Assembly: GCA_934045905.1 (NCBI GenBank)
Contig: OW203767.1
Location: forward strand, 29,758,520 to 29,822,519
Source: Leuctra nigra
Taxonomy: Eukaryota > Arthropoda > Insecta > Plecoptera > Leuctridae
Length of the DNA stretch: 64,000 nucleotides
Direction of reading: 5' to 3'
Numbering within the stretch: the first letter of the stretch is position 1; each line of letters begins with the position of its first letter. The translations under genes were made by a program, and so were the position numbers. Below the pieces are notes generated by a model. The model searched no databases, was not told the origin of the DNA, and saw only the letters and a program-made list of their open reading frames with translations. Positions 6,764 to 62,200 of this stretch are shown here, one piece after another.

Positions 6764-6963
6764 TCTGACATTTAGCCCTGCAATGTGAATTTTTCGCCCT
6801 GTTCCCTGATCAGTAGGTGGGGTGTTCTTGCTCTTGCTACTGCTACAAGCATCAGGTACAGGGGACTGTAATTGTCAACGATACCGCTTTGGCTTGGATT
6901 TGTTTTTCCGGGCAGAACGTCGCGGTCTTATCTCTCTCTGCTTCTGTGAAGTGACTGGAAGAC

Positions 6964-15215: not shown

Positions 15216-15356
15216 TCACAGTAGCGCATGCGCGTCACCGGGCTGGTCGTTCCACTGCTGCAACGCCGTACTGGCGAACACCAAGTAGAACAATCCAGTG
15301 AAGAAGTTGATTGCAGCAGTGATAAAGAAGATGATCCGCCATTGAGACGTAGAACT
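15216..15356 (-). CDS. SLC17 exon 9, C-terminus (residues 428-473)
   Basis: The acceptor TTTGTCGTCAG is followed by SSTSQWRIIFFITAAINFF, the last membrane helix, and the short tail ending QQWNDQPGDAHALL and TGA at 15218-15216. QW(R)xxFxITA and the terminal QxWND are family-typical. It is separated from exon 8 by a 14-kb intron. The nearest AATAAA on this strand that I see is near 14901-14896, inside a repeated block, so the 3' UTR probably overlaps repeat sequence. Confidence 0.9.
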   Translation of the reverse strand, partial: SSTSQWRIIFFITAAINFFTGLFYLVFASTALQQWNDQPGDAHALL

Positions 15357-27300: not shown

Positions 27301-30300
27301 TTTAATCTCTAACGTGTGCTTTTCGAACGCTAGGTACATAAACTGTTAATCAAAGGCTCAATTCAAATGTATGTAACTTTTTTCTCATAACTCAAATATT
27401 TCTACAAATCGCATGCAATAAATTATCATATGTGTCCTATAACGTGTACAAATTTCAGCTCCTTATCATTTGTAATTCTGTCGGAGTGAACAGCGGGATT
27501 TTTTCGGCGAGTTTTGGGGGAGTTTTATTTTATTTACGAATTAATATGGATACCTCGGACATTTAATGATATAAAATCATGAAGTACGTGGGAAATTTTC
27601 AGCAACCTATTATAGAGTGGCAGCAATTTAAATGCGTAATGATGTATGGATGGAAACCTAGACAGGAAATGGGGCAAATTCACATAGATTTTGTACCAGA
27701 GTAACAAATTCGCTTTTCATTCATAAGTTCTGTTCTCATTTCGATTATTGTGTCAATTAATTAATAAATCATAAGCTAAAGAAGAGATTATGAAGGTTTT
27801 ATATTTCACTATAGAACTACAAAAGTTTTAATCAACCGAACCATCAAGATTGTATGAAATTTCCACTGGTTTCGCCCAATTTGCCCGCATTAATGGTTCT
27901 TTTGGATATGTATGAAAGGAATTTATTCCCGCTCTATTTTACATTGTGGCACTGAAAAGTATCTATTACTAACGGTACTCTTTGTTCCTAACGCATATCC
28001 GTGCTTTGACACTATTTCCATAATTATATTTAAGAAAAATCAAATAGATAGCAGTGGCCAGCGTCAATGACTAATAGCGTGCATAGCAGCCATGTTGGGT
28101 TCTTCAATCCGCACCTGGCGGGTTCAGCGTTTCGCCGCCAGATGTCACTGAGCTTTGCTGTTAATCGCCAATAGTAGACGTATACCAATGGGCTTGTTCA
28201 CTGCCATTTGCTCTCACCAGGATTGCTAGCATCGGATTAGCTTGGGCAGCTTCGTTGGGCCGAGATTAGTAACATTTTTCTTAGTAACCAAAATGTCCGT
28301 GGGATGGCGCCAGCGGTTGGGTAACATCTTTGGTAGTAACTAAAATGAGTTTTAAAGAGTTTAAATGACCAATTTATGTATTGATAGTCTTTGGTAGTCT
28401 GTTGTAATCTCAAATACATTTAAAAATGTAAATTACAGTGTCCTACGTGCATAATATCTTTGTAAAACGAAATGTCATCATTGACCCAACATAAATTCCA
28501 TATTTACAAAATTTCGTCATCTTGCCGCGTTCTAATCTCTGCCCAGTAAATAGTTTTCACATGAAAACAAGATACGACTTCAGGCTACATCTTTGTACTA
28601 TGTACATTTTAGTTTTTTTTTTGTTTTGTTCTGTTAATTTTTGGGTCATTTTTAATAATGTAAACACTCTGTGCCGTAATTATTTGTACCGGAAATCAAA
28701 GCCGGAAATGACGTCATTTTGTTACCCATCTCGGCCTAAAGTCGGATTAAAGCACGTAACATAGTGGCGCCATCTATGCTGAGCTTTGCGTGAACAAGCC
28801 AATTAGTTGCGTGCAATCAACCGTGTAAATGGACCTCTAGGACACAAGAAAAAGAACACTTAATGATGATTTAATTCCTTGCACCTTAATATTCTCAAAT
28901 CAAGACTTGAAGTTTAAGGAAATCCTACGAGTTGCCAAGAACAGCAAACTTTACTATAATAAAAAGGCACATATTCATCACAAACCTGACACAATGTCTA
29001 ATGAATAACATGCGCTCTTTCGTGCGCTTTTTTTCTACTGCAAAAATAAATATTATTGACTGAAATAATAAGCTCCATCCAACCAAATCATCTATCCAAC
29101 GAAATGTTGAGATATTAATCATATCCACTATTTTGAATGTAATATTTAAAATAACAGCACTGGGGTTTGACAGCTTTCAAAAGCGTACGGATACGCAAGA
29201 TTTTTTTTTATTATTATTAAATCACTGCAAAAATAAATATTATTGACTGAAAATATTGATAAGCTCCAGTATGCAGTGAATTTCCTTCAAAATTCACCTT
29301 GGATTACTCAACATGAACGATGTAAGGTATGTACTCATAGGTAACTATTTCTTTTGATCGGATGTAGAGAAATAAAGTCACGTGATATGCAATGGCCTTA
29401 AGGAGGATATAATTACGTCATCAAGAACAATGGCGCCGACTGCGATGGGCGCGAAACATGACACGAGACTGGCGAGACAGTTGGACACCCCTAGCACGGT
29501 CCCGGCAAAGTTGGGCGCCAAGTCGATGATGTTCAGCATGAAACTGACGATGACGCACGCCGTGAAGCCGACGGCTACCGACAGGAGGGCGATGACCAGC
29601 GTCTTGTCCGTGGCGTAGGCGAGACCGACCAGGGCGGCGGCGGGCGCCCACGAACCTGGCGGGGAGTATTGTAACATGCATGAGGAGGGCGATGACCAGA
29701 GTCTTGTCCGTTGCGTAGGCGAGACCGACCAGGGCGGCGGCGGGCACCCACGAACCTGGCGGGGAGTATTGTAACATGCATGAGGAGGGCGATGCCCAGA
29801 GTCTTGTCCGTGGCGTAGGCGAGACCGACCAGGGCGGCGGCAGGCACCCACGAACCTGGCGGGGATGATTTTAACATGCATGAGGAGGGCGATGACCAGA
29901 GTCTTGTCCGTGGCGTAGGCGAGACCGACCAGGGCGGCGGCAGGCAGCCACGAACCTGGCGGGGATGATTGTAACATGCATGAGGAGGGCGATGACCAGA
30001 GTCTTGTCCGTGGCGTAGGCGAGACCGACCAGGGCGGCGGCAGGCAGCCACGAACCTGGCGGGGATGATTGTAACATGCATGAGGAGGGCGATGACCAGA
30101 GTCTTGTCCGTGGCGTAGGCGAGACCGACCAGGAGGCAGCTACGAACCTGGCGGGGATGATGTCAAGAGGGTAGGTAAGTATAGGTTAATTTTATTTTAT
30201 TTAGTTTTGTTAAGCCTCCCCCCCCCCCCCCCCTCCACCTCCCTAACACCGTCCCTGGGAGAAAATAATTTTGCCTGATACTCGAATCTCTCGCTTTTGT

Positions 30301-33300
30301 TTCCGTATACTACCTACATTCCTGAAAAGGTCAAGATGAGACTTAGCAAAGTGACAGCATTGACTCTTGTTCGGCTTTAAACATACCAAGACAATGAAGT
30401 CGTCAAGTAATTGCTACTCTACAAACTATACGTATCTATCATTCAGAAACATGTAGACATTTCAAGATGAGAGAAGATGTACGTCAATTTCGGGGTTGGC
30501 CAGTCTGGGAGTTTGGTGGCGTGTACATACTGTCAGAAAATATGGGCTTTACTTTTATGTATTTACTTAAACTTCCAGTAACCTTTTAATGTATGACTGT
30601 AGAGCTACAGTAAGTATGTAACTATGCCAACTACGTCTACCCGTGGGTATCACTCTAGGTTGCAACCCGTGGCTGGAACCCGAGTATGGATCACGTGATA
30701 TTTCGCATGTGCAGAGACCAAATTTAGTCTTTGCACACGCGCATTGATAATTTGGATACGCAGGTTCCAGCCAACAACTGCAACCCAAGTTAATAGCCAC
30801 TACTTTATTCCTTCATAGGCGTGACTCACTCATGATGCCGAAGAGTTTCCTTGAAGCTGTTGTCGAAAGTATTTTCCGGTTCGTGAGGAAGTCCGATGCT
30901 TTGCTGGACAGAATCGAGAGGACGAACAACACCAGGAAGGGAAGTGCAGAGAGAAACCCGTCCTGAGAAAGTAGGGACATTCCAAGTACAGGTCGTGGAA
31001 GACAGTTGCAGAAATATACGGTTTGACAACTTGACTCCATGGGCAACAGTTGCCAGTTGAAAGAGCAGTGTTATATCAATGCCGGAACTTAGGGACGGAA
31101 TGCCCCTAGCATTACATATTTTAAAGGCTGGTGAAATTCCCCGCATGGGAGGGTCGACAGTACTCGCAGAAAATTTCGATTCCGATGTAAAAAAATCATA
31201 GAAATGCATAAAAATCCATTAGCTCTGGGTTGTAGTCACTTGTGACATTTAATCGTGTGCTGCATGTTGCATATTATACTGCTGTGAAGTAAGTTATATC
31301 CCCATAAAAAAAAACTCTGTGTAAAAATACCAGACAAGTCTCTTCAACTAAAAAAATATGCAATCTAAAAATTCTGTACGGAAATGTTGTGATATCAAAA
31401 ATGAGTCAAGTCAAGACTTAATTTGAAAATTAAAAAAATACTTGGCGCATCGTGTACCTATATAAATAGTTTAGAAGTATACTTCAAATATACGTCCATA
31501 CATATTATATACATAATACCCTAAAAAATGATGCGCCAAGTATTTTTTTATTTTCAAATAAAGTTTTGACTTGACTCATTTTTGATATCACAACTTTTCA
31601 GTGCCGAATTTTAGATTGCATATATTTTCATAGTTGAGACTTGGCTGATAAATTTACAAGGATTGTATTTTATGGAGATAGCACTCCTTTTTTAGTTTAT
31701 TCTTAAAACTTGTGACGTCATATCGAATAAACAATTACTAGATTTTCCCACTCGAGGAAAATCTTTTCACATTGCAGTTGGTATTTATTAATTACTAAAT
31801 CCTTTTAAAAAATCGCCATTTAGAATTTAGTTACAACTAAGGAAAATCTGTGAAAATCAAAGAAAATCGTCTTGTGTTGTGTCGTGTATCGTGATTGGGG
31901 ATGTTGCATGTCCTGTGCTCGCTCATCAAAGCGTTACACTGAGCGTTTTCCTAGTAGAATACTAGGAAAACGCTCTGTGAAACGCGTTGATGAGCGAGCA
32001 CGGATACGCGCAACACCTCGAACCGAAATTCTGCGTCTATCGAAAATATCAATAAAAGCCAATAATTCTTGAATTTTTCACAGACTTGTTTAAAAATCTC
32101 CAAATATCACTCAAATATTAGTCCCAATAACCATGCAAAGTTTTAAGTTGATCGATTGAACCTTTATAATTGAACTACAAATTCCCAGTAAATATAAAAA
32201 ATCACAGAATCTCTTTCAAAAAATATACCTGGGACCACTCATACGATATTAGTGTGTGTACACAATATCAGATCGATCTGTTGAACGGTCATTATTAGTT
32301 TCATGCGTTTAAAAGTTTTTGCTCAACTACCTTGGATTAGAACTGAAGAGTCAAAGTAGCCGTGATCAACATTTTTTCGAGAAACACGCAAAATGTCCGT
32401 AAAATGTCAATTACTTTTAGATTTAAACACAGATTAGTCTGAAAGTAATCAAAAATACAGATAATGTTGGTCCCAATGATCATGCAAAGTTTTAAGTTGA
32501 TCGGTCATACTGTTCTAGTTTAAATGTCAAAAAACACATGATTTTTTTTTTTTTAATTTCAACCAATAAGAGGATTTGGATGAAATTTTGTTTGATTGGG
32601 CAAAATGTTGGTCGTAATGACTTCTCAAAATTTCAAATTGAACGGACCAACCAATCGAAAGAGAATTTTTTTAAAAATTTAAAATTGTCAGAAAATTGTC
32701 AATAAATACAGATAATGTTGGTCGAAATGACCATGCAAAGATTTAAGTTCTAGTTTAAATTTCAAAAATCATTTTTTTTTATTTTTATTTAAACCAATGG
32801 GTGATTTGACTGAAACTTTGTAAGATTAGGGACGATGTTGGTTGGAATGACTTGACAAAATTTCAAATTTATCGGACCAACCAATCGGCAGGTAATTTTT
32901 TTAAAATTTGAACCAATCAGTGAATTTCAAAAATATTAGGGTCTACAACGCCCAGAGAATGTCCGAATATGTGTGCAAAATTTCAGCTCGATCGAATAAA
33001 AACTGTGACCTGTATACCGGCAGTAACAGAAAAAAAACAGAGGTCAGTGCCAAAAAAGCCAAAAGAAGTCACTCGCTTCGATCTCTAAACAAACAATGTG
33101 TATTATTTTAAGCTTTCTGAATATGTAATCATTACATAGAGAGGGGGTAATAATAATTTTAAATTTAAATGACGTCATTTCCGGTCTCATAATAGGTATC
33201 CGGTCTCATCCCTTTCTTAGAATCGTTTTTTTCCGAATCGTTTGGCTCTAGTTTCGTACCGATCAGTCTACCAGTTTTCGAGATATGACGTTACTTCCGG

Positions 33301-36300: not shown

Positions 36301-39300
36301 TGCTAAGAGTAAAAGTGGGTTGCTCCAGCCTTTGTATACGAGAGTGTGCGCGCCGTACGACTTGGCTGGCGTGGAGCGACCGCTCCACTAGATTCATTCA
36401 AATATTGAAAACCACGATAAAAAGGCGGCCCCTAATTTTTTCTTTGTGGCTTGACCGATTGTCTCCAAATTTTTACAGCACAGAGATTTTTATTTTTTTT
36501 ATTTATTTATTTATTATTGTAAACACACAAAAATACATACATTCCGTTTTCCACAAAGCCAAAACGGCTTTTCTGTGGATTAATTTAAAGAAAATTAGTG
36601 GATACAAAAATGTTTAAACAATATACAAGAAAAGAGAGAAAAATACATAATAAACTGATTAACAAAGAAGAAAAAAATAATATTTTATACATCATCAGAG
36701 TATTCATACAACCAAGATTTCACTTCTTTCTTAATACTACTATAATTATCTAAAGACTTAATTTCTTGAGGCAACTGATTGAAAATAAAAGGGACAGAGT
36801 AATTTAAACATCGCTTTCCATACTTATTAGTAAATCGGGGGAGTATTAAAGAAACTGGATTCACCATTGATCTAGTGGCCCTGGAATGATTGTAGATAAT
36901 TTTAAGTTCGTTCGAATAAAAATATTTGATTATGAATTTATATTTATACAAATCAGATATTGGAAGGAAGTTAAGATGATCGTACATTAAGAGAGTGTTA
37001 TTGTTACATTTGAGCTTAACGGCATCAGGGGTCAAATTCTTGATCATTCTATCCTGTATAGATCGAATGACTTGAAGGTGAACATTGGATGTGCTGCCCC
37101 AAGCAAGTAAACCGTAAGAAATTACAGATTCCACTAAAGCAGAATATATTAATTTTAAAATTCTAACAGGTAAAAAAGATTTTACATGAAACAATTGAAA
37201 CGAGCAAGAACGTAATTTGGAAGCTAAGCTATTTATATGAGGTCTCCAGGAAAAGTATTTATCAATTGTTATACCTAAATATAAACAAGTATCAACCTCC
37301 TCAATCAGATCAGTACAAGTACACAAAGCAAAATCTAATGTATGTAAACAATTAAAACTATGACACAATAATGTTACAGGGTCTAACCTACTTGCAATTG
37401 AAGGTGAACAAATGTGAATTAACTTAGTTTTTGTACTATTTACTAACAAATCATTATCATGAGTCCACATCAACAATGTATTGAAATCAGACTGAAGAAT
37501 TATCTGAGCCTGTTCTAAATTTTTATGAGCAGATACTAGAACAGTGTCATCTGCGTACATATAAATTTTACAATTTTGAATATAACTAGGCATGTTATTC
37601 ACATATAAGAGATAAAGAATTGGACCCAATATTGACCCTTGAGGTACACCAGAATTACATACCCCAGCTATACTCACAGTTTCACCAACTTTAACTATAA
37701 TTTGCCTATCCGTTAAATAATTGTGAAACCAACATAAGAGGGGACCCCGAATACCAGCATTTTCAAGAGATGTTAACAATTTTGTATGGTTTAACGTATC
37801 AAATGCCTTTGAAAAGTCTATAAAAAGAGCCAGAACGTGCATATTCTCATTTAATTTAGAATTTATGTAATCAGCGAAAAGAGTAAGCAGATCAGTGGTG
37901 CTTCTACCTTTTTGAAAACCAAACTGATGTGAATTGATGATTTTAAACTTTGATAAATAATCAGTTAATATTTTTGCAACACACCGCTCCATAATTTTCT
38001 CAATAGTAGGGAGCAAAGCAATTGGTCGGTAATTATTGAACTCGAGGTGGTCACCTTTTTTGTAAACAGGTCGAATTATTGACATTTTTAATTTAGATAT
38101 AACAACACCTTCTGAAATTGAAGTATTAATAATTTTAGCAATAACTGGGCTTACTTTTTCCGCTATATTTTTCAAATCAGTTATTCGTATCCTGTCAAAA
38201 CCCGGTTGTTTGTTAGAGTTTAATGAATTTATAATATAATTTATGCGGGTGGCACACACTGGAGGCATGTATAAAGACTGAAGCTGAACTACATCATAAT
38301 TGTAACTTAAAGTATGAATGTTGCAAACATGTTTCAAAGATTCTACCTCACTGATGAAACAGTGCAAAAATCTATCTGCAATCTGCTTATCATTGAATTG
38401 TTTCCCTAAATATTTACTTAAAACCTGATCTACAGTATCCTTTTTCTTTTTACCAAGTACATCATTAATAGATTGCCATGTGTCCTTAATACTTCCTCTA
38501 GACTTCTCAAAGACACCTGTATAATAAATTTTTTTGGCATTACGAATAGCATTATTTATTTTATTTCTGAATTTTTTGTACTCGACGCCATAGTAAAATT
38601 TCAATACACCGTTACAATTCTTCCATTTCTTAAATAGACGGTCTCTTTCTTTACAGGATTTAATAATATCAGCCGTCAACCAAGACTTTTTCTTACGTTT
38701 CCCCAGCTGGTAATTTAGGTAATAAGATTCATCATAACAATAATCAAACTTGGCAGTTAGGTTGTCAAAAACGTCAGTGCATGTATCATATGTCATAGGC
38801 TCAAGCCAATCACACTCTCTCAACAAACGTGTTAATTTAACTTCATTAATGCATTTTTTTACTGGAATTTGATGTTGAAATTTCTGAGATGAGCCATGAA
38901 ACATGATTCCGGCAATAATTATATAATGATCAGATATCTTGGTAGTGTACACAGCCGACTTAATATCATGGCAACTAGACTTAATAAAAATGTGATCAAT
39001 GCAAGTACTCGTAAAAACATCACCTCTACATTCCTCGCGTGTTGCATCATTAATACAATTAATATAACCATTTGCAGCCATTAGCGATAAATATGAACGA
39101 ACATTGCAATCATCTGAATCGAACAGATTTAAATTCATATCTCCTAATATTACAACATTATTTACTTTGGAATAATTTCCAATGTACATTTCCAATTCCT
39201 CCACGAAACCACCTCTATTTAAATTAGGTGGCCTATAAATTGCCAACAAGGTAATAACATTTCCATTTGCCAGAGAAAAGATTCCTCCTACTCCTTCAAA

Positions 39301-42300
39301 ATACTGAAATTCATCATCATTTACAACAAAATGCCATACAGATTTTACAAATAACAATATTCCTCCTCCACCCCTATTTACACGAGTATAATGAAATCTA
39401 TCATAACCTTCAATGCTAAAGAGAGAAATAGGTGTGGTTGCAGTTATTGCGATTTCGGTTATCGCAATGACATCCACAACCCCTATTTGCTTACATAATA
39501 TACCATTTAATTGGTCCCAATTTTTATTTATTGATCTGATGTTCACATGTAAACAAGTGAAAAATTCCTCTACTTTAGAAAACCAACTGTCAATATCTGA
39601 TATTACTTCCCTCTCGACTTCTTCTGTAAACACAAATTCTATGTTTTGCATAAACTGGAAGCAAGTATTAACCCGCTAAATCTGACTCAGCCTGCCTATC
39701 AGAAACCAAAAGGTCAATATCCTGGTAAGAAGTAATTCTAAATACTTTACGGGAATTTTCGTCCTTGCGCACCAAGACCTTTCCGTGGCTCCACCAAACG
39801 AACTTGTAGCCGGTTTCCTTTGCCCTAGTCTTGACCGACCAGAGGAGTTCGCGGAAGAAAGGAGCCAAATTCTCGTTGATGTATATGCGGGACTGACCCA
39901 CTTGTACAATATCTTGACTCTTAATTGTAGCTGCTACCTTCTTTTTGTTTATAATTTCGTCTCTCTTCTTTCTGTTTACGAATCGAACAATGATTCTAGG
40001 AGGTCTGACTGAATTCCTCGACGGAAGGCGATGCGCTGCCTCAATATCACTTGCAGACAAATCCACGGATAGTTTTGCCGCCACTTTAATAACGATAGCT
40101 TCAATATTTTCCCCCACGACTTCAGATACGTTGTCAATCTCAATGTTATTGCGCCTACCGTATTGGTCAAGATCGTTGACCTGCTGCACCAGAAACTCAA
40201 TCCGCTCGTCTTTCTCGTCGCAACGTTGTTGCAAGTCAGCCACCCCAGCCTCAATGGCAATAACTTTCTTCGCTATGTCGTCTTTGAAACAGCGCAAATC
40301 TTCAGACACTACTCTGAAACTCTCCAGAAGTTCACGCTTTAAATCAGCAATTGCCGCAGTAAAGTCAGGAAAAACAAACGGTGTATCGTCCTTGGGCGTT
40401 TTAACTTTACCCTTTATGCACTTCGGACAACGCCACAACTTCCTATTTTCCTGCGTTTTCAATTTAGCACAGTCAAAGTGACAATTTAAAGAACAACCTG
40501 AGCACTGAATGAAGTCAGCATCAGCTGATAAGTCTAACTTGCACTTGGAGTTTAGGCACGACATAATAATGATAATAACACAGTAAATTGTCAATACACT
40601 GAAACGATGCGGAGCTACTGCTAGACACAACCATCCACTACACGGACCAAACAAGATAAAGAGTAAATCTGCAGTGCGATTGTATAACTTTCCCAAATGC
40701 TAACAAAACAATATAAATAACAATAATAGTTTCCCTAACGACCAATATTGCACACTAGCAACCAGTGTGATTGTAAAAGGATAACAATAAAAATAATTGA
40801 GATGTAAATTGTATTTAGATCTTTCAAAGTGGGCGGTTTTCTTACGCCACTTCCGTTTTATACCGCAGCCAATGAAATTGCAGTATTATATTTAAAGAGT
40901 GAAAATTCGAATGTTTAAGGGCGTTCGAATCTTTCGGCCAGTCTACCGGGCATAAACACAAGTTTTTCATAACCTAATAAACTGGTAATATGTGTAACAT
41001 TGTAATTGTCGTGCTTTTTTACTAAACTATACCTTGTATCGTTGTTATTAGTGATAAAAATGTCAAAATCCTAATATTGTTATCGATAATGGCTGGGTAT
41101 ACAAAGCAATCGTTATTTCCAAGCAGCACAGTTTTTTTTTTTTTAATAGATTGTTAGCATAATGTTATACAATCACACTTTCTTTTATCAAGTGGTATAG
41201 ATAACGACCCATTATCTCGGCTAAGAAAGTTATACAATCGCCCTGCTGTGCCTCTAGTGCTTCAAAAAAAAAAATTACTCGTGTTGAGGAGGTGCCAATA
41301 TGAGCAATATATGGATCCTTTTGGCACCTCTACCCTGAAAATACTTAACAAAAAATAACACTTTTCGCGCACTAAGGCACAGATTTATTAATTATCTACA
41401 ATCTGTGAAATTTTAAAGACAATCAGTAAAGCCGTCTATAAAAAAGTTGGGACCTCCTTTTTGTGCTTCATAAAACATGAATTTCATCAAGTATCGTAGA
41501 CCCTAAACGTTTCTAAAGCCATAATGTTTGTAATCATTGTCCTGCACATTAACTCTTGACTATAGGGAAGGTGCTGTGGACATGTCCCCCATACGACCAA
41601 GGGCCCCTGGCAGTTGCCGGCCCAGACACTGTACGCTAAAACTCACTTACAGCCTTTAGGTCGTTACCACGAACGGATTCCAGGAAGGTTGGTATCTCTG
41701 TCAGCAGCATCCAGTAGCCCCAGCCCCAGCCGCAGTGCAAGGCAATGATCGCCCACACGGGCAGTGACGTCAGCATAGGCTTCCACGGCGTTGTCAACCT
41801 CTGAACATGAACAACACATTGTCAAGCGCTGACTTCAGGAAGGTTGGTATCTCTGTCAGCAGCATCCAGTAGCCCCAGCCCCAGCCGCAGTGCAAGCTAA
41901 TGATCGCCCACACGGGCAGTGACGTCAGCATAGGCTTCCACGGCGTTGCCAACCTCTGAACATGAACAACACATTGTCAAGCGCTGACTTCAGGAAGGTT
42001 GGTATCTCTGTGAGCAGGGTCCAGTAGCCCCAGCCCCAGCCGCAGTGCAAGGCAATGATCGCCCACACGGGCAGTGACGTCAGCATAGGCTTCCACGGCG
42101 TTGTCAACCTCTGAACATGAACAACACATTGTCAAGCGCTGACTTCAGGAAGGTTGGTATCTCTGTGAGCAGCATCCAGAAGCCCCATCCCCAGCCGCAG
42201 TGCAAGGCAATGATCGCCCACACGGGCAGTGACGTCAGCATAGGCTTCCACGGCGTTGTCAACCTCTGAACATGAACAACACATTGTCAAGCGCTGACTT

Positions 42301-45300
42301 CAGGAAGGTTGGTATCTCTGTGAGCAGCATCCAGAAGCCCCAGCCCCAGCCGCAGTGCAAGGCAATGATCGCCCACACGGGCAGTGATGTCAGCATAGGC
42401 TTCCAAGGAGTTGCCAACCTCTGAACAAATACAATTCATTGACTCTCATTCCACATTCAGTCATTCGTGTTTATGACAATCTCATCTGACGCAACAGCGG
42501 TAATGCTTTCAGTAAATAATTTCCTTATTTTACGTGATAACACTTCTGTACTTTTTTATATTATATCTTTCTTTCAACATGTATTTATCATACGGTTTGA
42601 CTGTGTTCCATAATAATGGAGCGAGCGAAGCGAACGACTTCTTTTTGGCTCTTTTGGCACGGTGTATGTTTATTGATTTTTTATGTTACAGCCGGTATAA
42701 AGGTCACGGTTTTTCTTCGATCGAGCTGAAATTGAAATTCGTTGATTGGTTCAAATGTTTAAAAAATCCGATTCGTTGGTCAGAACAATTTGAAATTTTG
42801 GCCACTTCCAGGCACATTTGCCGTAATTTGACATTGTCTTTAATCATACAAAGTTTCAGCCAAATCCTCCAATTGGTTTCAGTATAAATTATCTTCCGAT
42901 TGGTTGAAATCTTATAATGTTCCGATTAGAATCAAATTTTGCATGGTGATCAAGTCCAAAATTATCTAAAATTGTTATGATGTAGTGGATCAGAGCCCTT
43001 GATGGATGTATGTGGTTCCGGTGCGGTTCTTGCTCTGTTAGTTGCTTGTGCTGGCCCTGAAAAGGGCCGTTGGCAGCGACGTTTCTAGGCACTTGCTGTC
43101 CTCATCCTCAGGCAGGCTGGGTTGGAATGGCTAGATGATCATCATCAGCTTTCTTCTGGTTGCCATAATGTTGGCAACGATGTTTGGATCTTGGCTGTTG
43201 CCTATATATCCAGTCGCTGTTGGGAGTTAGGCATGGTGGTCGTCTTGAATCTGCAGGCAGCAGATGGTTGTTTCTCACAGATCCAGCGCTGTGGTCGGCC
43301 GCGCGTAGCGGTCGAAGGGATTGACCTCAATGAGGCTCAACTCATGGATCAGCGGGTTGGCGTTGTATGCCAACTGCTCGTAGAAGTCTTGGTTGAGCTG
43401 CAGCATGTGGTCGTCCAAGTACTCGAGGTCGAGCTGTCCGCTGTCCTCGCGTACATCGGGACTCCCAGGGCGAATCTTGCTGCCTTGTTCTGCACGCGTG
43501 GCAGGAGAGCTCGCGAGCTGAGCGAGGCACAGCCGCTCCACACTGGCGAGGCGTGTGTCAGCGTAGGTCGTATGATGGCAGTGTAGACGCGTGTCTTGCT
43601 CGATGCACTCATGGACTTACTGCGCAGTAAGGGATAAAGAGCGGCCATCTTCCTCGTAGCTCGCTGTTGCGTCCTCTCGATATGCGCTCGCCAGGTGTGC
43701 TTGCTGTCCAACAAGACACCAAGGTAGAGGCTATTGGGCTCCCTATTGGCTCCCCGTGCAAGGACAGCTCGGGCATGTGCTTCACAGTTTTGCGAGTGAA
43801 CATTGTTGCAGTAGTCTTGGCGGCGTTTGCTTGTATTCGCCACTTGGAGTACCAATCCGCTAAGGCGTCAAGGGCAGTTTGGAGTTTCCTCTCAATCTCC
43901 TTGCCACTCCACGATTGGGTAATGATGGCGGCGTCGTCAGCGTAGAGTGCCAAGTCCACACCTTCCACGTCTCTAGGGATGCTGTTTAAGAAGATGTTAA
44001 ACAGGAACGGCGCCATGATTGATCCCTGTGGTACCCCCGCTAGGATGTGGCGGGTGCTTGATTTCTCGTCACGGTGTGACAAACGGAATGAACGGCGTGA
44101 TATATAGCTTGCTACGAGGTTTACCAGATATGGTGGGAATTGTAGCTCGATCAGCTGGTATAACAAGCTCTCGTGCCATACTCTGTCGAAGGCCTTTGCG
44201 ACGTCCAGAAAGACGATTCCAGTCAGTTTGTTGATATTGAAGCCATGCGTGATCTTTGCGACTACTCTCAGTAGTTGGTGGTTTGTGGAGCGATTTCGGC
44301 GGAAGCCAAACTGCTCATTGATGGTTATTTCTTTCTCTTCTGCATGAATGGCTAGATGGGAAAAGCCGGCTTTTAATCAGGCCTACTGTCGCAAGTAGGC
44401 GAGCCAATGGGAAAAGAGGTGGAATTGGCTGCGTGACCAATGGGAGCGCGGGAAGTGAGTAGGAGTAGGGATGGAGAGCGGTGGAGGGGGATGACTGGTC
44501 AGCTGATCACTCAGTTGACCGCTGGAGCTCGGCCCTGGCACGACTGCATGCACGACTGCATGCGGCGGGGACTCCCGCGGTGACACGTCCGCGTGTCCGT
44601 GGTCCCTGGGTCGGGTCCGCGATGGTCGGCGGTGGCGGTGATCTGCGCCATGACCGGCTTCCAGGCATGTGGCAGCCTGATCGAGTCATACCGCTGGTTC
44701 ATGTTGTGCGGGCGGCGCTCGATCTCGATGGCTTCTCGGATGACTCGCAGGCTGCGGTACTCGACGGTGGCCCAAGGACTTCGTGCCCTCGAAGTTGATC
44801 CGGTGGCCCTCTGCTTCCACGTGCTGGGCGAGGGATGAAGTCGGTGCTCGGAGACGGACGGCTCTTCGGTTTTCCTTGAGCCTTTCAGACATGTGCCGGC
44901 CAGTCTGTCCGATGTAGGTGCGAGGTGTAGTCTCTGCAGGGGATCTCGTAGACGCCCTTCTCTTTAAGGGGGATCTTGTCCTTGGAGCTGCGGAGCCTCT
45001 CGCCGATCTTGAAGTCCGCCCGGAAGATGGTCTTGATGTCGGCCGTGGCGAGGAGCTTGCTGATGCGGTCGGTTGTCCCTCGGACATACGGCAGGAATGC
45101 GAGTCTGACCGGGTCGATGGGCGGCGAAGGCGTGTCCGGGTCCTTCGGCTTCCTGTTCCACGCCTTGAGGAAGTCGCGGTTTGAGTAGCCGTTGCTGAGG
45201 TGCGCCTTCCGCAGGATCTTCTGCTCCTCTGCGATGTGGTCGTCGTCTGCGACCCTCCTCGAGCGTGTGGTGAGCGAGTTGGCCACCGCCCGGAGCTGCG

Positions 45301-47187: not shown

Positions 47188-47225
<38 letters not shown>

Positions 47226-50200
47226 AGAGGTCCGCGCCAAAAGAGCCAAAAGGAGACGCTCGCTTCGCTCGCTCAATAATGTAGTCAAAATGTAATGTAG
47301 GTATTTCATATACATAGGTTTAGGTATACCTTATCTAAAATAATTTATTTTACGATATGGGCTGTGTTTCACAGTTATGAAAACAACGTTTTGACTAGAT
47401 AGCATCATATTTTACCAATTTCCAGCCCAATCGGTCAAGAATTTACATACTTATTGCTGTTTTAAGTGTTTGAATATCTGTCCAAAGAGATTGATGGAAA
47501 AATATCAGTACAATAATCTGTTATTTAATTGATCCAGAGTGTTTATGAAAAGTTGCAAGGAAAATTGGTAATAAATAATGTATAGTTAGTTATCTTTGAT
47601 TGAATGGATCGTGCTTGATTGGCGATGTCGTGCGTGTCGGTGCTCGCTCATCAACGCGTTAAACCGAGCGTTTTCCTAGTTTAAAATTGCTGCCAGAAGA
47701 GCAGCAAAAAGTAGCAAATTCAAGGTACGTTGATCTAGTATTCAATTGTTTCAGAATATGTAGATGGAAAGTTGCAATGAAAATCAGTTACGATGAAGAA
47801 GTAATTTCTTATTTATTGGATCGTGTTCGGTTGGAGATGTTACGCGTATCGGTGCTCGCTCATCAACGCGTTACACTGAGCGTTTTCCTAGTTACATTTC
47901 ACTGTAATCTCACCTGTATCGAGGTATTCGTCATTTACCTGTCCACTGATGTTCTCTTTAATCTTCAGGGAGTCTTGGATGTAGGCGCGTTCCTCTTCTG
48001 AGATGTGTCTATCCAGGACTGGAGTGTCGGCTCCCAGCCAGATCCAGAGCAAAGTCCAGACGATCCCGAGTCCCCCGAACCAGTAGAACACTGACGGCCA
48101 CCCTCCGCTGTCCGTGGACATGACCCCGCACAGCCCCATAGCCAAGACGGTGCCAACATGACCGCCTAGCAGGAAGGTCAAGGTGGGAATGAGCAATATT
48201 TATTAATAACTTTTAAATTATTGCAATACATCTTGCATACCAGGTGGCGCAAAAAAACTCTCCCTATCTCCCTCTCCCTATTTTCTGAAATGTTTACCTA
48301 ATTTTAAGAAAACATACCAAAATGTAATAGGTGCAGTTTCAAACATATCCGTAGAATAGGAAAAAAGTTAGAAGTGATTGAAGATAAAGTAGAAAAAATA
48401 GAATAAACCAGATAAATGACTTGTGTGAAAAATTAATTTGGAGTTATTTGGAGTTTGGAGTATGTTGTTTGGTCCACCTGTGATAGGATATTGAGTGGGA
48501 CTTTATAAACACTGTACTTGTATAATTAGTAATTAGTATTTATTTTGGTTCGTACATCCTAATAGCAATCTTCTAGAACGACTCCATCTTGGTTGACCTA
48601 CTTGTCATAACCATGACTACCAACTGCATAACATCACATCTCCCCATCCAGTACCTTTCCTATTAATAATAATTCCAATAGTAATAATCATTGCAAGGTA
48701 TTAAATGTCTGAAGTTACACATACTGATTTCAATAGTAATAATAATTGTAAGACTTGCAATGTCTGAAGTTACACATACTGATTTCAATAATAATAATAG
48801 TTGGTACATCACCAAAAACTAAAACACTAGATTTTAATTTGAATGTAGCTCTACAGATAATCATTGTACTTCTTGGGTCTCTTAGATACCCTTCCATATC
48901 TAGTCGTCACATTCCCTTCTTTTTCCACATTCTCATTTCCTTTCTTTTCCTCCTCCTGCATTACAATCGTCTCCTTCTCCTGCATTACAATCGGCTCCTT
49001 TTCCTGCCCTACATGAGGTAAAATTACACTGCTCTCAGGCTCGTCGGCCTGGACTGGCTGATAAGGATTAACTGATGGTTTAAGCATACTACGATTCCTT
49101 CGTAATTCTGACCCTGTCTCTGTTGTTACCATGTAAGACCTTGGTGCATCATGCTTTGCACTCACAATAGCTGGTTCCCATTCCTTTCCACGTTGCACGA
49201 CCACCACATCTCCTGGGTTGAGTTTCTTAAGTGGCCTTGCACTTCTATCGTGAAACTCTTTCTGCTTACTTTGTGCCTTTATCAACTGTTCTTTAACATT
49301 AGTATGTACCTTAGGCTGTAACTTACTTTCGATCATCGGCAAGGAAGACTTAAGACTACGACACATCATCATCTGTGCCGGAGATAACCCTAAGCCTGTA
49401 ATCGGCGTATTACGATATTCTAACAAGGCTCGGTACACATTAACATTTTCAAACTAAGCCTTTTTCAACATTCCCTTCGCTTGCTTCACTGCATTCTCAG
49501 CCATACCATTAGATCTGGGATACCTGGGACTCGATGTTTTAACAACAAAATTCCAATCTTGGTGCAAACTGTTAGAATGCAAAACTCGAGAACGGCATAT
49601 TGTCAGATATTAAGACATCAGGAACCCCTAATCTAGCAAATATACTTTGCAGTTTCACACTCACTTCAGCTGCTGTCTTTGATTTCAATTCCAGAACTTC
49701 CAACCATTTTGAATAGTAGTCTTTCACCACTAAATAGGTTCTACCATTGCAATCAAAGATGTCTGTTGCCAACTTCTGCCATGCCCTATTAGGTATAGGA
49801 TGTGGCATCAAAGGTTTCTTAGCATTAGCTTTGCTAAAGCGCTCACAAGTAACACAGCTCTTCACTTTGTCATATATGTCCTTGCTCATGCCTGGCCAAA
49901 AGGCTACACTCCTGGCCCTTTCCCTGCTCTTTTCCACCCCAAAGTGGCCCTCATGTGCAATCCTCAACAAATATGACCTTAATGAAGGTGGCACTAAAAT
50001 ACGCGACCCAATGAACACCAACCCATCATCCACTGATATGTCGTCCTTCATACTGAAGTAGTATTTGCAACTACTTGGAACACTGTACTGATGAGCAGGC
50101 CATCCTGACTGAACCAATTCCATCAACTGCTTCGCTACTTCCCAATTCGCGGTTTCCTTCTGAAATTCTCGTCTTCTCTCCTCAGTGATAGGTAAGTGTT

Positions 50201-53200
50201 TAGAGACACTGTGAACCAAGAATTTCATTTCTGGATCTTCATCCTCATCCGTACATTTCAGAAATGCCCTAGAAAGTGTGTCAGCCAACACCATCTGCTT
50301 CCCTGGCAAATAAGTAATCTCTAGATCATACTTTATGATTTTCAGTTGCATCCTTTGCAACCTTGGAGAAACCTTGTTCACTGTTTTAGACATGATCGTT
50401 ACTAAAGGTTTATGATCAGTTTGAATGATCACCTTCCTGCCATAAGCATAATAGTGAAATCTGGTCAGACCAAACACAATCGAATTGAGCTCTTTCTCGA
50501 TCTGAGCATAACCCTGTTCCGTTTCCGTCAAACTCCTGGAAGCAAATGCAATAGGATGTCCATCCTGAACCAAACACGCTCCCATCCCGTCTTTGGAAGA
50601 ATCGACTTGCAACACAAGTGGCTTTGTGTCGTCAAAATACACTAAAACTGGTGCCTGACATAACATCTCTTTCAGGTCCAAAAAAGCCTTTTCATGTTCA
50701 TGCTCCCAAACCCAATCAACGTCAGATTTCAACAACTGTCTAAGCGGACACGATACTGAGGACATATTGGGCATGTACTGACTGATGCACAAAATTGAGC
50801 ATACCCAAAAATCTTCGAATATCTGCGGCACAAGTCGGAGTTGGCATGTCAGCTATAGCCCTAACTCTTTCAGGATCCGGTCGCACACCTGTTGCTGATA
50901 CCTGCTGTCCCATGAACTTCACCTCTGAGAGACCATGCTGAAACTTAGCACAATTAAATTTCACGTTCATTTGTCTAGCCCTTTCAAGAACCTGCCTCAA
51001 AACTCTGTCATGTTCCTCCTGAGTTTTTCCCGAGATAATAATGTCATCAAATATTATCTGTACACCTTCAATGTCTCCAAAAATCTCATTGTTCATACGT
51101 TGAAATACTTCCGGACTTGAAGATAAGCCAAAAGGCATTCTGAGAAATTTATACCTTCCGAAAGGTGTGTTGAATGTACACAAGTCTGTACTTTTCTCAT
51201 TCAAGGTCACCTGATGAAACCCATCTTTCATGTCCAAAATAGAAAAAATTTTGCACCCTGAGAGTCTCGCTAATACATCCTCAGCCACAGGAATAGGATA
51301 GTGTTCCCGTTTTAGACTCTTGTTAAGCTCAGTAGGATCTAAACATACACGGAGATCCCCACTTGGCTTCTCTACAATTACCAGGTTGTGCACCCAATCG
51401 GTTGCATGCGTTACCTTCACAATCAGATTTTGTTTTTCCATTGCATCTAACTTAAATAAATAATAAATAAATAAAAAATAAAAAGGGCTTTATTAAGTTT
51501 ACGGCGAGATTAAGCACAAATGCTTCTCTTCCACCTAACCGTTTACATGCTAAAATAATTCAACATACATGTTATTAAGTTGCTTAAATGCTAGCTACAA
51601 CTTGGCTTTTAACTTATCCCTAATCGCTAAAGGTATACGACGAGGTGGCTCCACCTTTGGAACTGAATCATCCCTCATTTCCATTGTATACTGCCCTGGC
51701 ATACACCCCATACCTTCAAAAACATCTTTGTATTCTTTAATCCAAGCCTTTTTGGTATTCACAGTAGTAGTACCTACTTTGTCAACTTTCTCTATCAAGC
51801 CTAACTTAACACATGCTTCTAGGCCCAATAAAGGTTTACCTTTTGTATCTGTTACCATAAATGGTACCTTTTTCTTCTTATTGCCTTTTTCACAAGTTAA
51901 TGTAATGACTCCTAACGGCTTGACGACATTGTTGCCAAATCCTTCCAACTTTACATTTGTTGGACTTAGTTTCCCTACATTACCCATTCTTTTGTAACAA
52001 TCTGCAGGCAAGACACTCGTTTCTGCTCCTGTATCAAGCTTAAATGTTACCTTCTGTCCCGCAACCAGCACATCGGCATTCCACGACTGCTTCTGCGACG
52101 CTGAAACACCGTCTATCTTCTTTGTATTCTTCAAGGTCACGGACTCCATGGATAAAGTTGAAACATCTGGATGTTCTTCTTCTGATGACGTTTCTTCTTC
52201 GTCGTCGCTATCCGGCATGTTGTTCGGATCGTACTGCTCTACTGTCTTGACTGCTTTCTTCTTCATCTTGTTCTTCTTTTGTAGGCGGCACATTTTCTTG
52301 AAGTGCCCTTCCTTCTTACACCCCGAGCAGCGTTGCCCAAAGGCTGGACATTTACGAGGTGCATGGGAGTAGCCGCAAAAACTGCAATTATTCTTTAATG
52401 GCAGTTGATTCTTCAACTGCTGAATTGGCTTGCTTGTCTTTTGCACAAATTCTACGTTCTTCACTCCCTCGAGTTGTGCCAATTGTAGTCTGCTGGCTTC
52501 TGCTGCTCTACAATATTCTGCTGCTTTCATCAGTGCGAGGTCAGGAATACGCAGCAATCTCTCACGTAATGATTTATCATTGATTCCTAACACCACTCGT
52601 AACGTCAGCATCTGCTCCGTCTGATCTTTGAACTCACAAGTGGACGCCATCTTCTTTAACTTGGTCAAAAAACTTTCAAACGGCTCCCCTTCCGCTTGAC
52701 TGTGTGTGAAGAATTTTGACTGTTCAAAAATTAGATTTTTGCGGGGGTTGCAGTATAGTTCAAACTTGTTTAACACGTCTTTAAGGCTCGCCGAACTCTC
52801 ACCTGTTGCATAAGTGAATGTATTAAACACTTCAATCGCCTCTTCTCCAACAAAGTTTAATAGCATCGCCACTTGTACATCTTGAGGTTTTGCCTCTCGG
52901 CCCGTTGCTTTTAGATAAATTTCGAACCTTTGTTTAAATCTACGGAAATTTTCAGCTAAATTTCCCGTTAGATCCAACGGCGGCGGCGAATTAAATCGAG
53001 TTGCTGACATACTGCTTGCTTGGTGAGGTCAATTGGCTGTCGTTGTCTTCTTACTGCGTAGTTCGCGCACGTGTTGAAAACTCTTCTTAGCTTGTTTTCT
53101 CTGCCCTAGCTTAACACACGCAGTAATCTTGATTTGCACTACTTCTGACACCATGTAATAGGATATTGAGTGGGACTTTATAAACACTGTACTTGGATAA

Positions 53201-56200: not shown

Positions 56201-59200
56201 GAGTATGAAGCAGTGAGAAATAAGACAAATTTGGTTTGAAAAGCCACTGCAATTGATTGTGCATGCGAGTGCCAGAGAGGTAGAGAGATAAGTGTCACAT
56301 CGGAGGAGCAATAAGCGCATGCGCTAAGGATTCAAGGGAGTCTGTACCTGTGTAAGACAGAGTGACGAGCAAGCCTCTCTCTTGCACGGGGATCCATCTA
56401 GCAAGCAGCGCATGCGTGGCAGGGAACACCATGCCCTGCGGAGAAAACAAGTTGAGACAAGAGAGATGGTAAGCTACAGGGGTGCTTGGAGCATACCAAT
56501 CAATCGAATTACTACTATTTTCATCACTGTCTAATATTGATATTTTTATTTTTAAAGTATTCATTCTATCCAGATGAGTCAGTGCTCCCACCTGGCTTAG
56601 CCCCTGCATGTTACACCTCCAACCTGGCTTAGCCCCTGCATGTTACATCACCCACCTGGCTTAGCCCCTGCATGTTACACCTCCCACCTGGCTTAGCCCC
56701 TGCATGTTACATCACCCACCTGGCTTAGCCCCTGCATGTTACATCACCCACCTGGCTTAGCCCCTGCATGTTACACCTCCCACCTGGCTTAGCCCCTGCA
56801 TGTTACACCTCCAACCTGGCTTAGCCCCTGCATGTTACATCACCCACCTGGCTTAGCCCCTGCATGTAACACCTCCAACCTGGCTTAGCCCCTGCATGTT
56901 ACACCTCCAACCTGGCTTAGCCCCTGCATGTTACACCTCCCACCTGGCTTAGCCCCTGCATGTTACACCTCCCACCTGGCTTAGCCCCTGCAAGTTACAC
57001 CTCCCACCTGGCTTAGCCCCTGCATGTTACACCTCCCACCTGGCTTAGCCCCTGCATGTTACACCTCCCACCTGGCCTAGCCACTGCATGTTACACCTCC
57101 CACCTGGCTTAGCCCCTGCATGTAACACCTCCCACCTGGCTTAGCCCCTGCATGTTACACTTCCCACCTGGCTTATCCCCTGCATGTTACACCTCCCACC
57201 TGGCTTAGCCCCTGCATGTTACACCTCCCACCTGGCCTGGCCCCTGCATGTTACACCTCCCACCTGGCTTAGCCCCTGCATGTTACACCTCCCACCTGGC
57301 TTAGCCCCTGCATGTTACACCTCCCACCTGGCTTAGCCCCTGCATGTTACACCTCTCACCTGGCCTAGCCCCTGCATGTTACACCTCCCACCTGGCTTAG
57401 CCCCTGCAAGTTACACCTCCCACCTGGCTTAGCCCCTGCATGTTACACCTTCCACCTGGCTTAGCCCCTGCATGTTACACCTCCCACCTGGCCTGGCCCC
57501 TGCATGTTACACCTCCCACCTGGCTTAGCCCCTGCATGTAACACCTCCCACCTGGCTTAGCCCCTGCATGTTACACTTCCCACCTGGCTTAGCCCCTGCA
57601 TGTTACACCTCCCACCTGGCTTAGCCCCTGCATGTTACACCTCCCACCTGGCCTAGCCCCTCATTGTTACACCTCCCACCTGGCTTAGCCCCTGCATGTT
57701 ACACCTCCCACCTGGCTTAGCCCCTGCATGTTACACCTCCCACCTGGCTTAGCCCCTGCATGTTACACCTCCCACCTGGCTTAGCCCCTGCATGTTACAC
57801 CTCCCACCTGGCCTGGTCCCTGCATGTTACACCTCCCACCTGGCTTAGCCCCTGCATGTTACACCTCCCACCTGGCTTAGCCCCTGCATGTTACACCTCC
57901 CACCTGGCTTAGCCCCTGCATGTTACACCTCCCACCTGGCTTAGCCCCTGCATGTTACACCTCCCACCTGGCCTAGCCCCTGCATGTTACACCTCCCACC
58001 TGGCTTAGCCCCTGCATGTTACATCTCCCACCTGGCTTAGCCCCTGCATGTTACACCTCCCACCTGGCTTAGCCCCTGCATGTTACACCTCCCACCTGGC
58101 TTAGCCCCTGCATGTTACACCTCCCTCCTGGCCTAGCCCCTGCATGTTACACCTCCCACCTGGCCTAGCCCCTAAATGTTACACCTCCCACCTGGCTTAG
58201 CCCCTGCATGTTACACCTCCCACCTGGCTTAGCCCCTGCATGTTACATCACCCACCTGGCCTGGCCCCTGCATGTTACACCTCCCACCTGGCTTAGCCCC
58301 TGGATGAACCGGAAGGCGAAGACGAGCCCCCAGCCTCCGTGCGCCGCTCCAACTGGGATCAGCATGCAGAAAGATGACGTCACGACTGTCGCCACGGCCA
58401 GGACGATCTTGGGACCGAAGCGCTCGGCCAACAATCCACCAGGCACTTGCAAGAGGAAGTAGCCCCAAGCAAAGCCGCTTAAGATTGTTGATTGAGTAGA
58501 CAAGTCCCAGTCATATTCCTGGAGAAACATCATAATATGAAGTATTGTAGACCTATGTTTGAATATATTTATTGGCCTAGTTTTGACATAAGCTTCGTCC
58601 AAGTTGAAATGTATGTATACTACCATAATACTATCTCACCTGGACTCCTATTCTACAATGAAAGCGAAATTATTTCGGTTTTAATCATTTGTGATTCGTG
58701 TTTTCCTTTTATAGCATACTGAATCTATGTCCGAATGTTATGATATTGATATCGATTTAGTTACAGAATAAGGGACCTGCTAGACGGAAAATGATTGGTT
58801 AGGACCCTTGATAGAAGCTTGAAGTTTCTGTGCGGTTTCTGCTCTGATTGCTTTATTGGACCCCAACCCAAACTACTTGGGGTATAGTACGTATTTGATC
58901 TAGGAGAATATACTTTGTGTGAATCTATCTATTGAGGAATTGCTAAGATCGCTGCCGGCGAAACGTCACTTGTCCCGGCCCTTAGAGGACCAGTGAACCC
59001 AAAAATTAAAATTTTACTATAATTCACGTTAGGGGATTTAAGCACATTGACGCAGTGTTGGAACATCTAGCCTAACGCGTATGGTCTTGAAATGGTACAT
59101 AAAAGAATGACCTTGCGACAAGTGGCGAGTCAGTATTACAGTGTAACATCGATTTCATCTTCAAATATTCGGTGTGAGCAAACTAAGTGCAATCCAGGAT

Positions 59201-62200
59201 GAAATAACAAACAAATCTTCCTCTTTCTAACCACATTTTATTCAAAACTATAGCGCCTATAATTTACCTGCAATTAATAAAATCTCTTATTAAGCCCCAC
59301 TTTATATTTTACCAGCTTTACGCCAACCCTCCTGTTCCATGAATTTAAATTTACGATCGAAATGAGATCACTTTTGAAGGTATTTAAACACACTTTATGA
59401 CCGTCAACGACACAATGTTTCTACTTAAAATGTACACTCAATTAATTGAAAAATGGCACACAAAGTTATTCAAGGTTATTATTGAACTTGATCTAACCAT
59501 TTTTATTTTCATAACCAATCAGAAGTTATGTTTTTAAATGTAAATCTTTGAACAAATCATTGGGCAATGCTCAAAAACAATCATAGGCTAAATTGGAATG
59601 GTGCAAAATGTTGCATGTGTGCAAAATTTCAGATCGATTGGATAAAAATGTGACCTACAGCGTCGGGGAAAAAAAAGAAGAACTGTCCATTAGAACCGAA
59701 TGAAGACCCTCGCTACGCTCGCTCAATAAAGTCGGTAGGTACCGGATTTTCAACGATAAACCCTACATTTATTAGTGCCTGTGACCAGGTAAGATATCAA
59801 GTTATTGAAAAAAAGAAACTTGATGCCCTCTTTGACTAGGTATTCATAACAAAGACAACGACCCCACTTGCAAGTCTGTATACCTACAGTGAAAATTGCG
59901 ATCTCTACGATATTTTTAATGCAGTACAGCAATATTTCGTCAATAATTTTCGGGACCAATATATTGGAGGCGAAAAAGGTCAAGTGGGTTGTAGCTTAGA
60001 CTAAATTCACTTATAGAATGAGGAAAATACATTAAATTCCTCTAATACAACAGTTTGAAAAATTTCGTATTCTATATTATATGTTTCATCACGTGGTTCC
60101 ACTCGAATACCCCTAAAAAGCAACTTGAGCTAAAACCGAATAGAAACTTTCATCAATGCTTGTCGTATTCCTGAAATAATTGCCTAAAGCCGGTTTCACA
60201 TAAAGCGCGTTTCGCGGTTTGCGTTTTGCGTTTTGCTTCTTTTTTATTGACCAATCACAAGTCTCCCTTGAGAGGTTTAGCTGGACTTGTGATTGCCGAT
60301 TGGTCGGAAAGAAAAACGCGAAACTCAATACGCGATACGCGCTTTGGTAGAGTATTATAGCTGTTCTGTTGAACGTCTACGAAGTTGGGAGTTGTGATGT
60401 GGTTTGACGGAACACTGTAGTAGAGAGTACACTGACGTGTGTGTACTCTATCTCTCTCTGCTCTATATAAAAACATGTTTATGATATGGGTCAGAGAGAG
60501 GCAGAGTGCAACTATCTTATTGCCGCCACTGTACATCTATGCTTTATGCTATTCAACTGACCAGATAGTCTGAGTTGACGGCCTCCTTGTCGACCATGGC
60601 GACGATGGCGACGGAGAGGTTGACGCGGAGGGTGATGACTGTGTGAAGTAGTGTCACATGAAGGGAAGTAAAGGCATGTACTGACCGGATAGTCTGGGTT
60701 GGCGCCCTCCTTGTCGACCATGGCGCCGATGGCGACGGAGAGGTTGACGCGGAGGGTGGTGACTGTGTGTAGTGTCACATGAAGGGAAGTAAAGACATGT
60801 ACTGACCGGATAGTCTGGGTTGGCGCCCTCCTTGTCGACCATGGCGCCGATGGCGACGAAGAGGTTGACGCGGAGGGTGATGACTATGTGTAGTGTCACA
60901 TGAAGGGAAGTAAAGGCATGTACTGACCGGATAGTCTGGGTTGGCACCCTCCTTGTCGACCATGGCGACGATGGTGACGGAGAGGTTGACGCGGAGGGTG
61001 GTGACTGTGTGTAGTGTCACATGAAGGGAAGTAAAGGCATGTACTGACCGGATAGTCTGGGTTGGCACCCTCCTTGTCGACCATGGCGACGATGGCGACG
61101 GAGAGGTTGACGCAGAGGGTGGTGACTGTGTGTAGTGTCACATGAAGGGAAGTAAAGGCATGTACTGACCGGATAGTCTGGGTTGGCACCCTCCTTGTCG
61201 ACCATGGCGACGATGGCGACGGAGAGGTTGACGCGGAGGGTGGTGACTGTGTGTAGTGTCACATGAAGGGAAGTAAAGGCATGTATTGACCGGATAGTCT
61301 GGGTTGGCACCCTCCTTGTCGACCAAGGCGACGATGGCGACGGAGAGGTTGACGCGGAGGGTGGTGACTGTGTGTAGTGTCACATGAAGGGAAGTAAAGA
61401 CATATACTGACCGGATAGTCTGGGTTGGCGCCCTCCTTGTCGACCATGGCGACGATGTCGACGCAGAGGTTGACGCGGAGGGTGGTGACTGTGTGTAGTG
61501 TCACATGAAGGGAAGTAACGACATGTACTGACCGGATAGTCTGGGTTGGCGCCCTCCTTGTCGACCATGGCTACGATGGCGACGGAGAGGTTGACGCGGA
61601 GGGTGGTGACTATGTGTAGTGTCACTTGAAGGGAAGTAAAGACATGTACTGACCGGATAGTCTGGGTTGGCACCCTCCTTGTCGACCATGGCGACGATGG
61701 CGACGGAGAGATTGACGCGGAGGGTGGTGACTATGTGTAGTGTCACTTGAAGGGAAGTAAAGACATGTATGACCGGATAGTCTGGGTTGGCGCCCTCCTT
61801 GTCGACCATGGCGACGATGGCGACGGAGAGGTTGACGCGGAGGTTGATGACTGTGTGTAGTAGTGTCACATGAAGGGGAGTAAAGACATATACTGACCGG
61901 ATAGTCTGGGTTGGCGCCCTCCTTGTCGACCATGGCGACGATGGCGACGGAGAGATTGACGCGCTGTGTGAAGACTACCACCATGTTGAGGAATGCCAAG
62001 GCCACCTGGAGGTGACGTATGCCGAGACATCGCTCTGCAAGTTAAGTCAATGCGGACCTTTCAAAGTGATTCTAGACACTTTCATTTTTAATCACACACT
62101 TTATACAATAAATACATATATTTCCATAAGTAATACACAAATTAAATACAATGTATAAAGTGTTGTAGAATGCGTCAATAGTAATAAACTTGAAACTTGA

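Follow-up and report, generated by a model that had tools for sequence, protein, structure and literature searches.

The stretch of DNA considered here (the window) comprises 64,000 nucleotides of contig OW203767.1 (positions 29,758,520 to 29,822,519) from the insect Leuctra nigra and carries, on its minus strand, a gene of the SLC17 family in which four splice junctions each lie in an array of tandem repeats. The gene was assigned to SLC17 by its MFS_1 domain (E 1.2e-49), and among its homologues a putative inorganic phosphate cotransporter of Anabrus simplex, with 47% identity, has the best E-value. Of the 33 rows in a tree, 20 form one clade (support 100/99), composed of the window gene, 15 named rows, all from insects, and four rows without a name. 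Six further insect rows stand outside this clade and group with rows from crustaceans, Collembola, cnidarians and amphioxus. Exons were located by tblastn with a bait sequence, together with splice motifs. Eight exons (exons 2 to 9, Table 1), separated by GT-AG introns, join into a single open frame of 447 codons plus stop when the exon-proximal array copies are used. Exon 1 was not found in the window by the same tblastn and splice-motif search.

The preliminary description of this DNA had reported near-identical tandem arrays at four junctions of one SLC17 gene, with the other exons free of them. Tandem Repeats Finder (TRF) places all four arrays where they had been described, and the remaining exons of this gene have no second copy spanning a junction at E <= 0.01. 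Each unit consists of a core, made up of an exon edge with its splice site plus 6-14 bp of native intron, which alternates with 10-49 bp of filler. The exon 2 core is the final 66 bp of the exon plus GTCAGT, with a filler of about 49 bp, and the exon 3 core is CAGGGGCTAAGCCAG followed across the junction by GTGGGAG, with the filler GTGTAACATG (10 bp). The filler is 28 bp long in the exon 6 array and is CATGCATGTTACA (13 bp) in the exon 8 array. The units had been taken to be an exon edge plus adjoining intron. The exon edge is confirmed, but the non-exon part is mostly filler: the bases that match the single-copy flank number 6/55 for exon 2, 7/17 for exon 3, 7/35 for exon 6 and 14/27 for exon 8, with core/filler boundaries and flank matches set by eye and the present flanks taken as the original ones. 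Filler is confined to positions between copies, so that each array has n cores but n-1 fillers. Unlike in a simple duplication of a continuous stretch, the intron part is not left at one end, so that the core-filler order would fit either a duplication during which letters were inserted or the re-insertion of a filler-closed circle. When copies were located by their core motifs, the junction dinucleotides were intact in 12/12 exon 2, 53/54 exon 3, 5/5 exon 6 and 6/6 exon 8 copies (76/77 overall). Intron 3 (1852 bp) is mostly made up of the exon 3 array.

Table 1. Exons of the SLC17 gene and its four junction arrays (window positions)
Feature	Position	Strand	Remarks
Exon 2	61898..62034	(-)	ends at exon-proximal array copy, donor at 61897
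Exon 3	58288..58518	(-)	donor at 58287, first of 54
Exon 4	56348..56435	(-)	156 bp from last exon 3 donor copy
Exon 5	47939..48165	(-)	without array in the window gene
Exon 6	41651..41800	(-)	starts at last (exon-proximal) acceptor copy
Exon 7	30830..30962	(-)	without array
Exon 8	29417..29655	(-)	starts at last acceptor copy
Exon 9	15216..15356	(-)	runs to stop codon
Exon 2 donor array	60556..61963	(-)	121 bp unit, 12 cores; TRF x11.6, 95% match
Exon 3 donor array	56585..58306	(-)	32 bp unit, 54 cores; TRF x53.8, 94% match
Exon 6 acceptor array	41681..42427	(-)	155 bp unit, 5 cores; TRF x4.8, 96% match
Exon 8 acceptor array	29583..30160	(-)	100 bp unit, 6 cores; TRF 29583-30133, x5.5, 97% match; end extended by eye to the outermost core, whose acceptor copy at 30148 is just beyond the TRF range

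The predicted full protein is obtained only from the exon-proximal copy in three of the arrays: the first of 12 exon 2 donors, the first of 54 exon 3 donors (one of which lacks GT) and the last of five exon 6 acceptors. At exon 8, two of the six acceptors give the full protein, the last copy and the copy at 29955. The latter, the sole such inner copy in the four arrays, keeps the frame and adds 100 residues. At exon 2, the exon-proximal copy encodes FTQRVNLS (window 61960-61975) and the array copies encode LRVNLS; among 120 homologues the motif is held by 83, and the residue before R is L or M in 78 and Q in 2.

The exonic parts of the copies contain 12 distinct synonymous and 25 distinct non-synonymous variants, leaving out the first exon 8 copy. 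The expected neutral synonymous share is 0.22-0.29 and the copy variants lie near it, so as judged from these variants the copies show no sign of protein constraint. This bears on the proposal that the arrays are splicing regulators, maintained by selection as decoy sites, which had been raised in the preliminary description. The presence of arrays in many paralogues (below) and the 76 of 77 copies that retain splice dinucleotides would be in keeping with such a role. However, overall copy divergence is too low to show any special retention of the dinucleotides, the exonic variants are neutral-like, near-identical genes differ in copy number, and the first exon 8 core has lost 8 bp and has a TAG stop in the exon frame. 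The proposal is therefore not sustained, and a regulatory role is considered very unlikely.

When single units are placed at random, the probability that all four straddle one of the 15 junctions is 1.5e-7, which excludes pure chance. The three larger units (100-155 bp) are close to exon length, so a unit of this size that overlaps an exon will mostly straddle one junction. Given exon overlap, the probability of straddling exactly one junction is 0.68-0.81 for these units and 0.29 for the 32-bp unit, and the product over the four arrays is 0.12. The anomaly is therefore the overlap with exons and not an aim at junctions. A preference for G+C-rich sequence would reduce this anomaly but would not abolish it; outside the arrays, 562 of 3034 100-bp pieces with at least 53% G+C overlap a coding exon. 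The arrays stand at the 98.4th-99.8th percentile of |G4Hunter| relative to sequence outside them. DNA hairpins were rejected as a cause because the predicted folding of the units is not superior to that of window pieces matched for G+C (among 200 such pieces, folding was as low or lower in 46 for exon 2, 194 for three copies of the exon 3 unit, 38 for exon 6 and 135 for exon 8). Copying of the filler from nearby was also rejected, as a search of the window gave no convincing source, and an Rfam scan returned nothing at gathering score.

Arrays of the same type are found across the SLC17 family in this genome. A search of the genome (536 Mb, 144 contigs; 150 of 307 candidates scored) gave at least 135 matches to exons 3 and 4, some of which form series of incomplete exon 3 copies within paralogues. 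Twenty paralogous 10-kb stretches (given L numbers here, with C numbers for contigs) were then filtered for arrays with a period of at least 25, at least 2.3 copies, at least 85% match and a score of at least 300. An exon-overlapping array was present in 16 of the 20, or in 14 of 18 if L027 and L028, chosen because the genome search already displayed repeats there, are left out. SLC17 coding matches were overlapped by 25 of the 30 paralogue arrays (30,876 bp) and not by the other five (2,886 bp), and such matches make up 15% of the non-array sequence in these stretches. Among eight random, unannotated 5-kb control stretches, one array passed the filter, and it was cut by the stretch end. Translations of the paralogue units reach exon ends at the donors of exons 2, 3, 5 and 6 and the acceptors of exons 3, 5, 6 and 9, which together with the exon 8 acceptor of the window makes nine junction types. 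Copy number differs between genes: the exon 3 array has 100 copies in L009 versus 54 in the window, and the near-identical duplicate genes L010 and L011 on C5 have a 153-bp exon 3 donor array with 21.7 and 30.7 copies, respectively. These counts suggest that array copy number turns over.

The units themselves are shared between genes to a degree that the rest of the genes is not. The 121-bp consensus of the exon 2 unit, core and filler together, shows 96-100% identity when the window is compared with eight paralogues on the large contigs C1, C5, C6, C8 and C11. When the 36 pairs of these nine genes were compared, the first 70 letters of the unit, which are exonic, had a mean identity of 0.98 (minimum 0.97) and the remainder a mean of 0.995 (minimum 0.96), whereas exon 3 DNA had a mean of 0.75 (0.65-0.94); both unit parts were more alike than exon 3 in 36/36 pairs. 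The upstream half of exon 2, compared through the first copy, is unlike that of the window in L009, L012, L014, L016, L017 and L023; L013 and L022 were represented by an inner copy instead. A two-unit query gave 78 matches, 79-100% identical, on C1, C3, C4, C5, C6, C8, C10, C11 and C13, with full-length matches outside the window's own copy at no more than 97%. Other junctions follow the same pattern. The exon 5 donor unit is 94-99% identical versus 72-87% for exon 3 and 69-80% for exon 4 (6/6 pairs), and the exon 6 unit is 93% identical between the window and L013, a pair whose exon 3 is 81% identical. The best reading of these comparisons is that the units have been homogenised between loci. 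Arrays, together with the exon edges they include, seem to undergo concerted evolution across distant loci even as the genes diverge elsewhere.

Taken together, the data suggest, with a probability of roughly 0.7, that the arrays are minisatellites of the kind called mirages in amphioxus, which were amplified and then homogenised, are tolerated beside the exon, and have been exchanged between SLC17 paralogues. Under this model a segment across one splice junction would have been duplicated in tandem with short filler between the copies, and the array would then have been grown and homogenised by recombination. The copy that touches the exon body would keep the original junction while the remaining copies become intronic, and the arrays would be tolerated for this reason. 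Exon definition would favour the exon-touching copy, that is, the first donor or the last acceptor. Because paralogues have the exon edge in common, the core would offer homology for ectopic exchange, and core plus filler could be copied among SLC17 genes on different contigs by gene conversion or by re-insertion of an excised circle, with the final 66 bp of exon 2 overwritten together with the unit. Arrays wholly inside an exon would alter the protein and hence be removed by selection. The arrays would presumably be functionless. A stronger version, in which the junction unit is a self-spreading element that amplifies beside an exon, moves by means of exon-core homology, overwrites the coding edge and can land elsewhere, is proposed only tentatively. 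The case of landing elsewhere would be an exon 2-type array on C13 (L029, C13:46935000-46938499, positions 1223-1678; 95 bp x4.8, 99% match), a possible orphan landing of the exon 2 unit. Other SLC17 exons were not found in the 3.5 kb fetched around this array, and a reverse-transcriptase-like frame lies nearby.

Several observations weigh against exchange between tolerated minisatellites. The 25 exon-overlapping arrays are not independent, because L010 and L011 are near-identical duplicates and the exon 2 arrays are interrelated. The units were compared as TRF consensus sequences, which mask variation between copies. The exon 2 core is also kept at 97-100% identity in three paralogues with a single core (L019, L021, L026) and at 97% in three with two cores (L010, L011, L015), so constraint at the DNA level could account for part of the likeness between units. 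Finally, the occurrence in SLC17 is left unexplained by G+C alone. By the filter used for the SLC17 stretches, no exon-overlapping array was present in two chaperonin (CCT) genes, whose 14 exon matches have 41-63% G+C; they contained one 2-copy repeat of 185 bp located between exon matches, along with three minor repeats. In a third CCT gene (40-49% G+C) the sole repeat, of 2 copies, lay away from the exon matches. G+C or G-richness alone was rejected as the cause on the basis of these matches. The difference between 16/20 SLC17 stretches and 0/3 CCT genes gives 0.02 in Fisher's test, in a small sample.

The core identities in single-core genes also form the case for an alternative in which the arrays are ancestral to the family and DNA-level constraint, not exchange, keeps the units alike. 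This alternative is considered quite unlikely, as the non-exon part of the unit, which lies in introns, is at least as alike (0.995) as the exonic part (0.98), these genes resemble each other far less in exon 3, and six paralogues (L018, L020, L024, L025, L027, L028) have exon 2 cores only 70-86% identical over 35-69 aligned letters. The core identities in the 12 other stretches could be the outcome of earlier conversion and a later loss of the array, or of constraint acting in some of the genes.

The preliminary description had also suggested a process that targets splice junctions or transcribed exon edges. Breaks linked to the spliceosome or to R-loops, seeding arrays where they occur, would be one such process. 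The association with exon edges stands, given the random-placement probability above and the 25 of 30 paralogue arrays that overlap coding matches, but a specific aim at junctions is not needed and is considered unlikely. It is true that all four window arrays lie at junctions and that, by eye, 25/25 exon-overlapping paralogue arrays reach an exon end with GT or AG and none is wholly exon-internal. However, geometry alone gives 0.12 for the four window arrays once exon overlap is granted, and exon-internal arrays would be eliminated by selection as described. The exon 3 and exon 8 fillers also speak for such a process, with 11 letters in common when context is included (278 of 200000 random pairs, with six comparable array pairs); 9 common letters were reached in 8 of 20000 random sets for this pair of fillers, and in 445 when any pair among the four was allowed. 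Letters resembling CATGTTACA occur in the exon 2 types, with one mismatch, in the exon 8 type and in three of four paralogue exon 3 donor units, but even with one mismatch allowed they are missing from the exon 3 acceptor, exon 5, exon 6 and exon 9 units and from the L024 exon 3 donor unit, and a single filler motif behind all arrays was rejected on this basis. A general junction-directed process also fits poorly with the three CCT genes that lack an exon array. Likewise, repeated partial copies of one exon were not noticed in 57 CCT matches (55/55 candidates scored) or in the 98 P450 matches listed (92/835 candidates scored), though short copies may escape this comparison.

Long arrays are difficult to assemble, and the copy numbers given here are those of the assembly, a point that also counts against the preferred reading. 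An assembly artefact is nevertheless extremely improbable: the copies carry ordered internal variants, the same anatomy recurs on several contigs with differing copy numbers, and repeats of like kind in amphioxus PGBD5 were upheld in old and new reads, according to the excerpts of PMC3902484 used here.

Arrays of this type had been thought to match no described system, but the amphioxus mirages, minisatellite-like duplications of exon-intron boundaries known from Adh3, troponin C, the globins BflGb6 and BflGb9 and PGBD5, have already been described (excerpts of PMC3087553 and PMC3902484, to which the following comparison is limited). In both systems tandem units (10 to ~160 bp in amphioxus) span a donor or an acceptor and are homogenised within an array, and AG or GT is kept in many copies. 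The window arrays show the following features of mirages: near-identical head-to-tail units that span a junction of a coding gene, with splice signals kept in 76/77 copies. The present case differs in that it is found in an insect, involves four junctions in one gene, has filler between the cores, and reaches 54 copies, or 100 in a neighbouring paralogue. It also has near-identical units common to genes on several contigs, which is unreported in the excerpts. Splice sites are likewise multiplied in coding genes during intron gain by tandem duplication of AGGT segments, but there a new intron arises, whereas here existing introns seem to be lengthened and the message is predicted to be unchanged (excerpts of PMC4974935 and PMC2891723). 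Human segmental-duplication genes with tandem repeats at exon-intron boundaries are similar in that these minisatellites lie in duplicated genes and vary between paralogues; they differ in that the repeats are reported to alter splicing or protein and have a mean unit of 30 bp x4 (excerpts of PMC2812944). A literature search found no insect case of exon-intron boundary minisatellites. The kind of array is already known from amphioxus, and what appears to be new is its occurrence in an insect and the sharing of units across a family, which extends a little-known phenomenon in both respects.

Satellite families undergo concerted evolution between loci, and as in the SLC17 arrays their units are more alike than their surroundings. 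Satellites are not known to be built of exon edges or to carry coding sequence along. If the SLC17 units truly move, intronic repeats can homogenise short coding stretches and mislead gene trees. The 54 near-identical donors, 32 bp apart before one acceptor, are a natural experiment in which exon definition can be set against intron definition, and the arrays in general offer an unusual test case for splice-site choice and for sequence exchange in gene families.

The window contains other repeats as well. Retrotransposon-like frames are present within two of the introns and also downstream of the gene (36685-39675, 4188-6874 and 48851-53028) and comprise a 996-amino-acid frame of the long interspersed nuclear element (LINE) type, which had nothing closer than 47% identity among the matches listed, another reverse-transcriptase frame and a gag-pol-like set. 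A repeat of ~200 bp occurs in tandem at both 8377-9183 and 3149-3522, outside the exons found.

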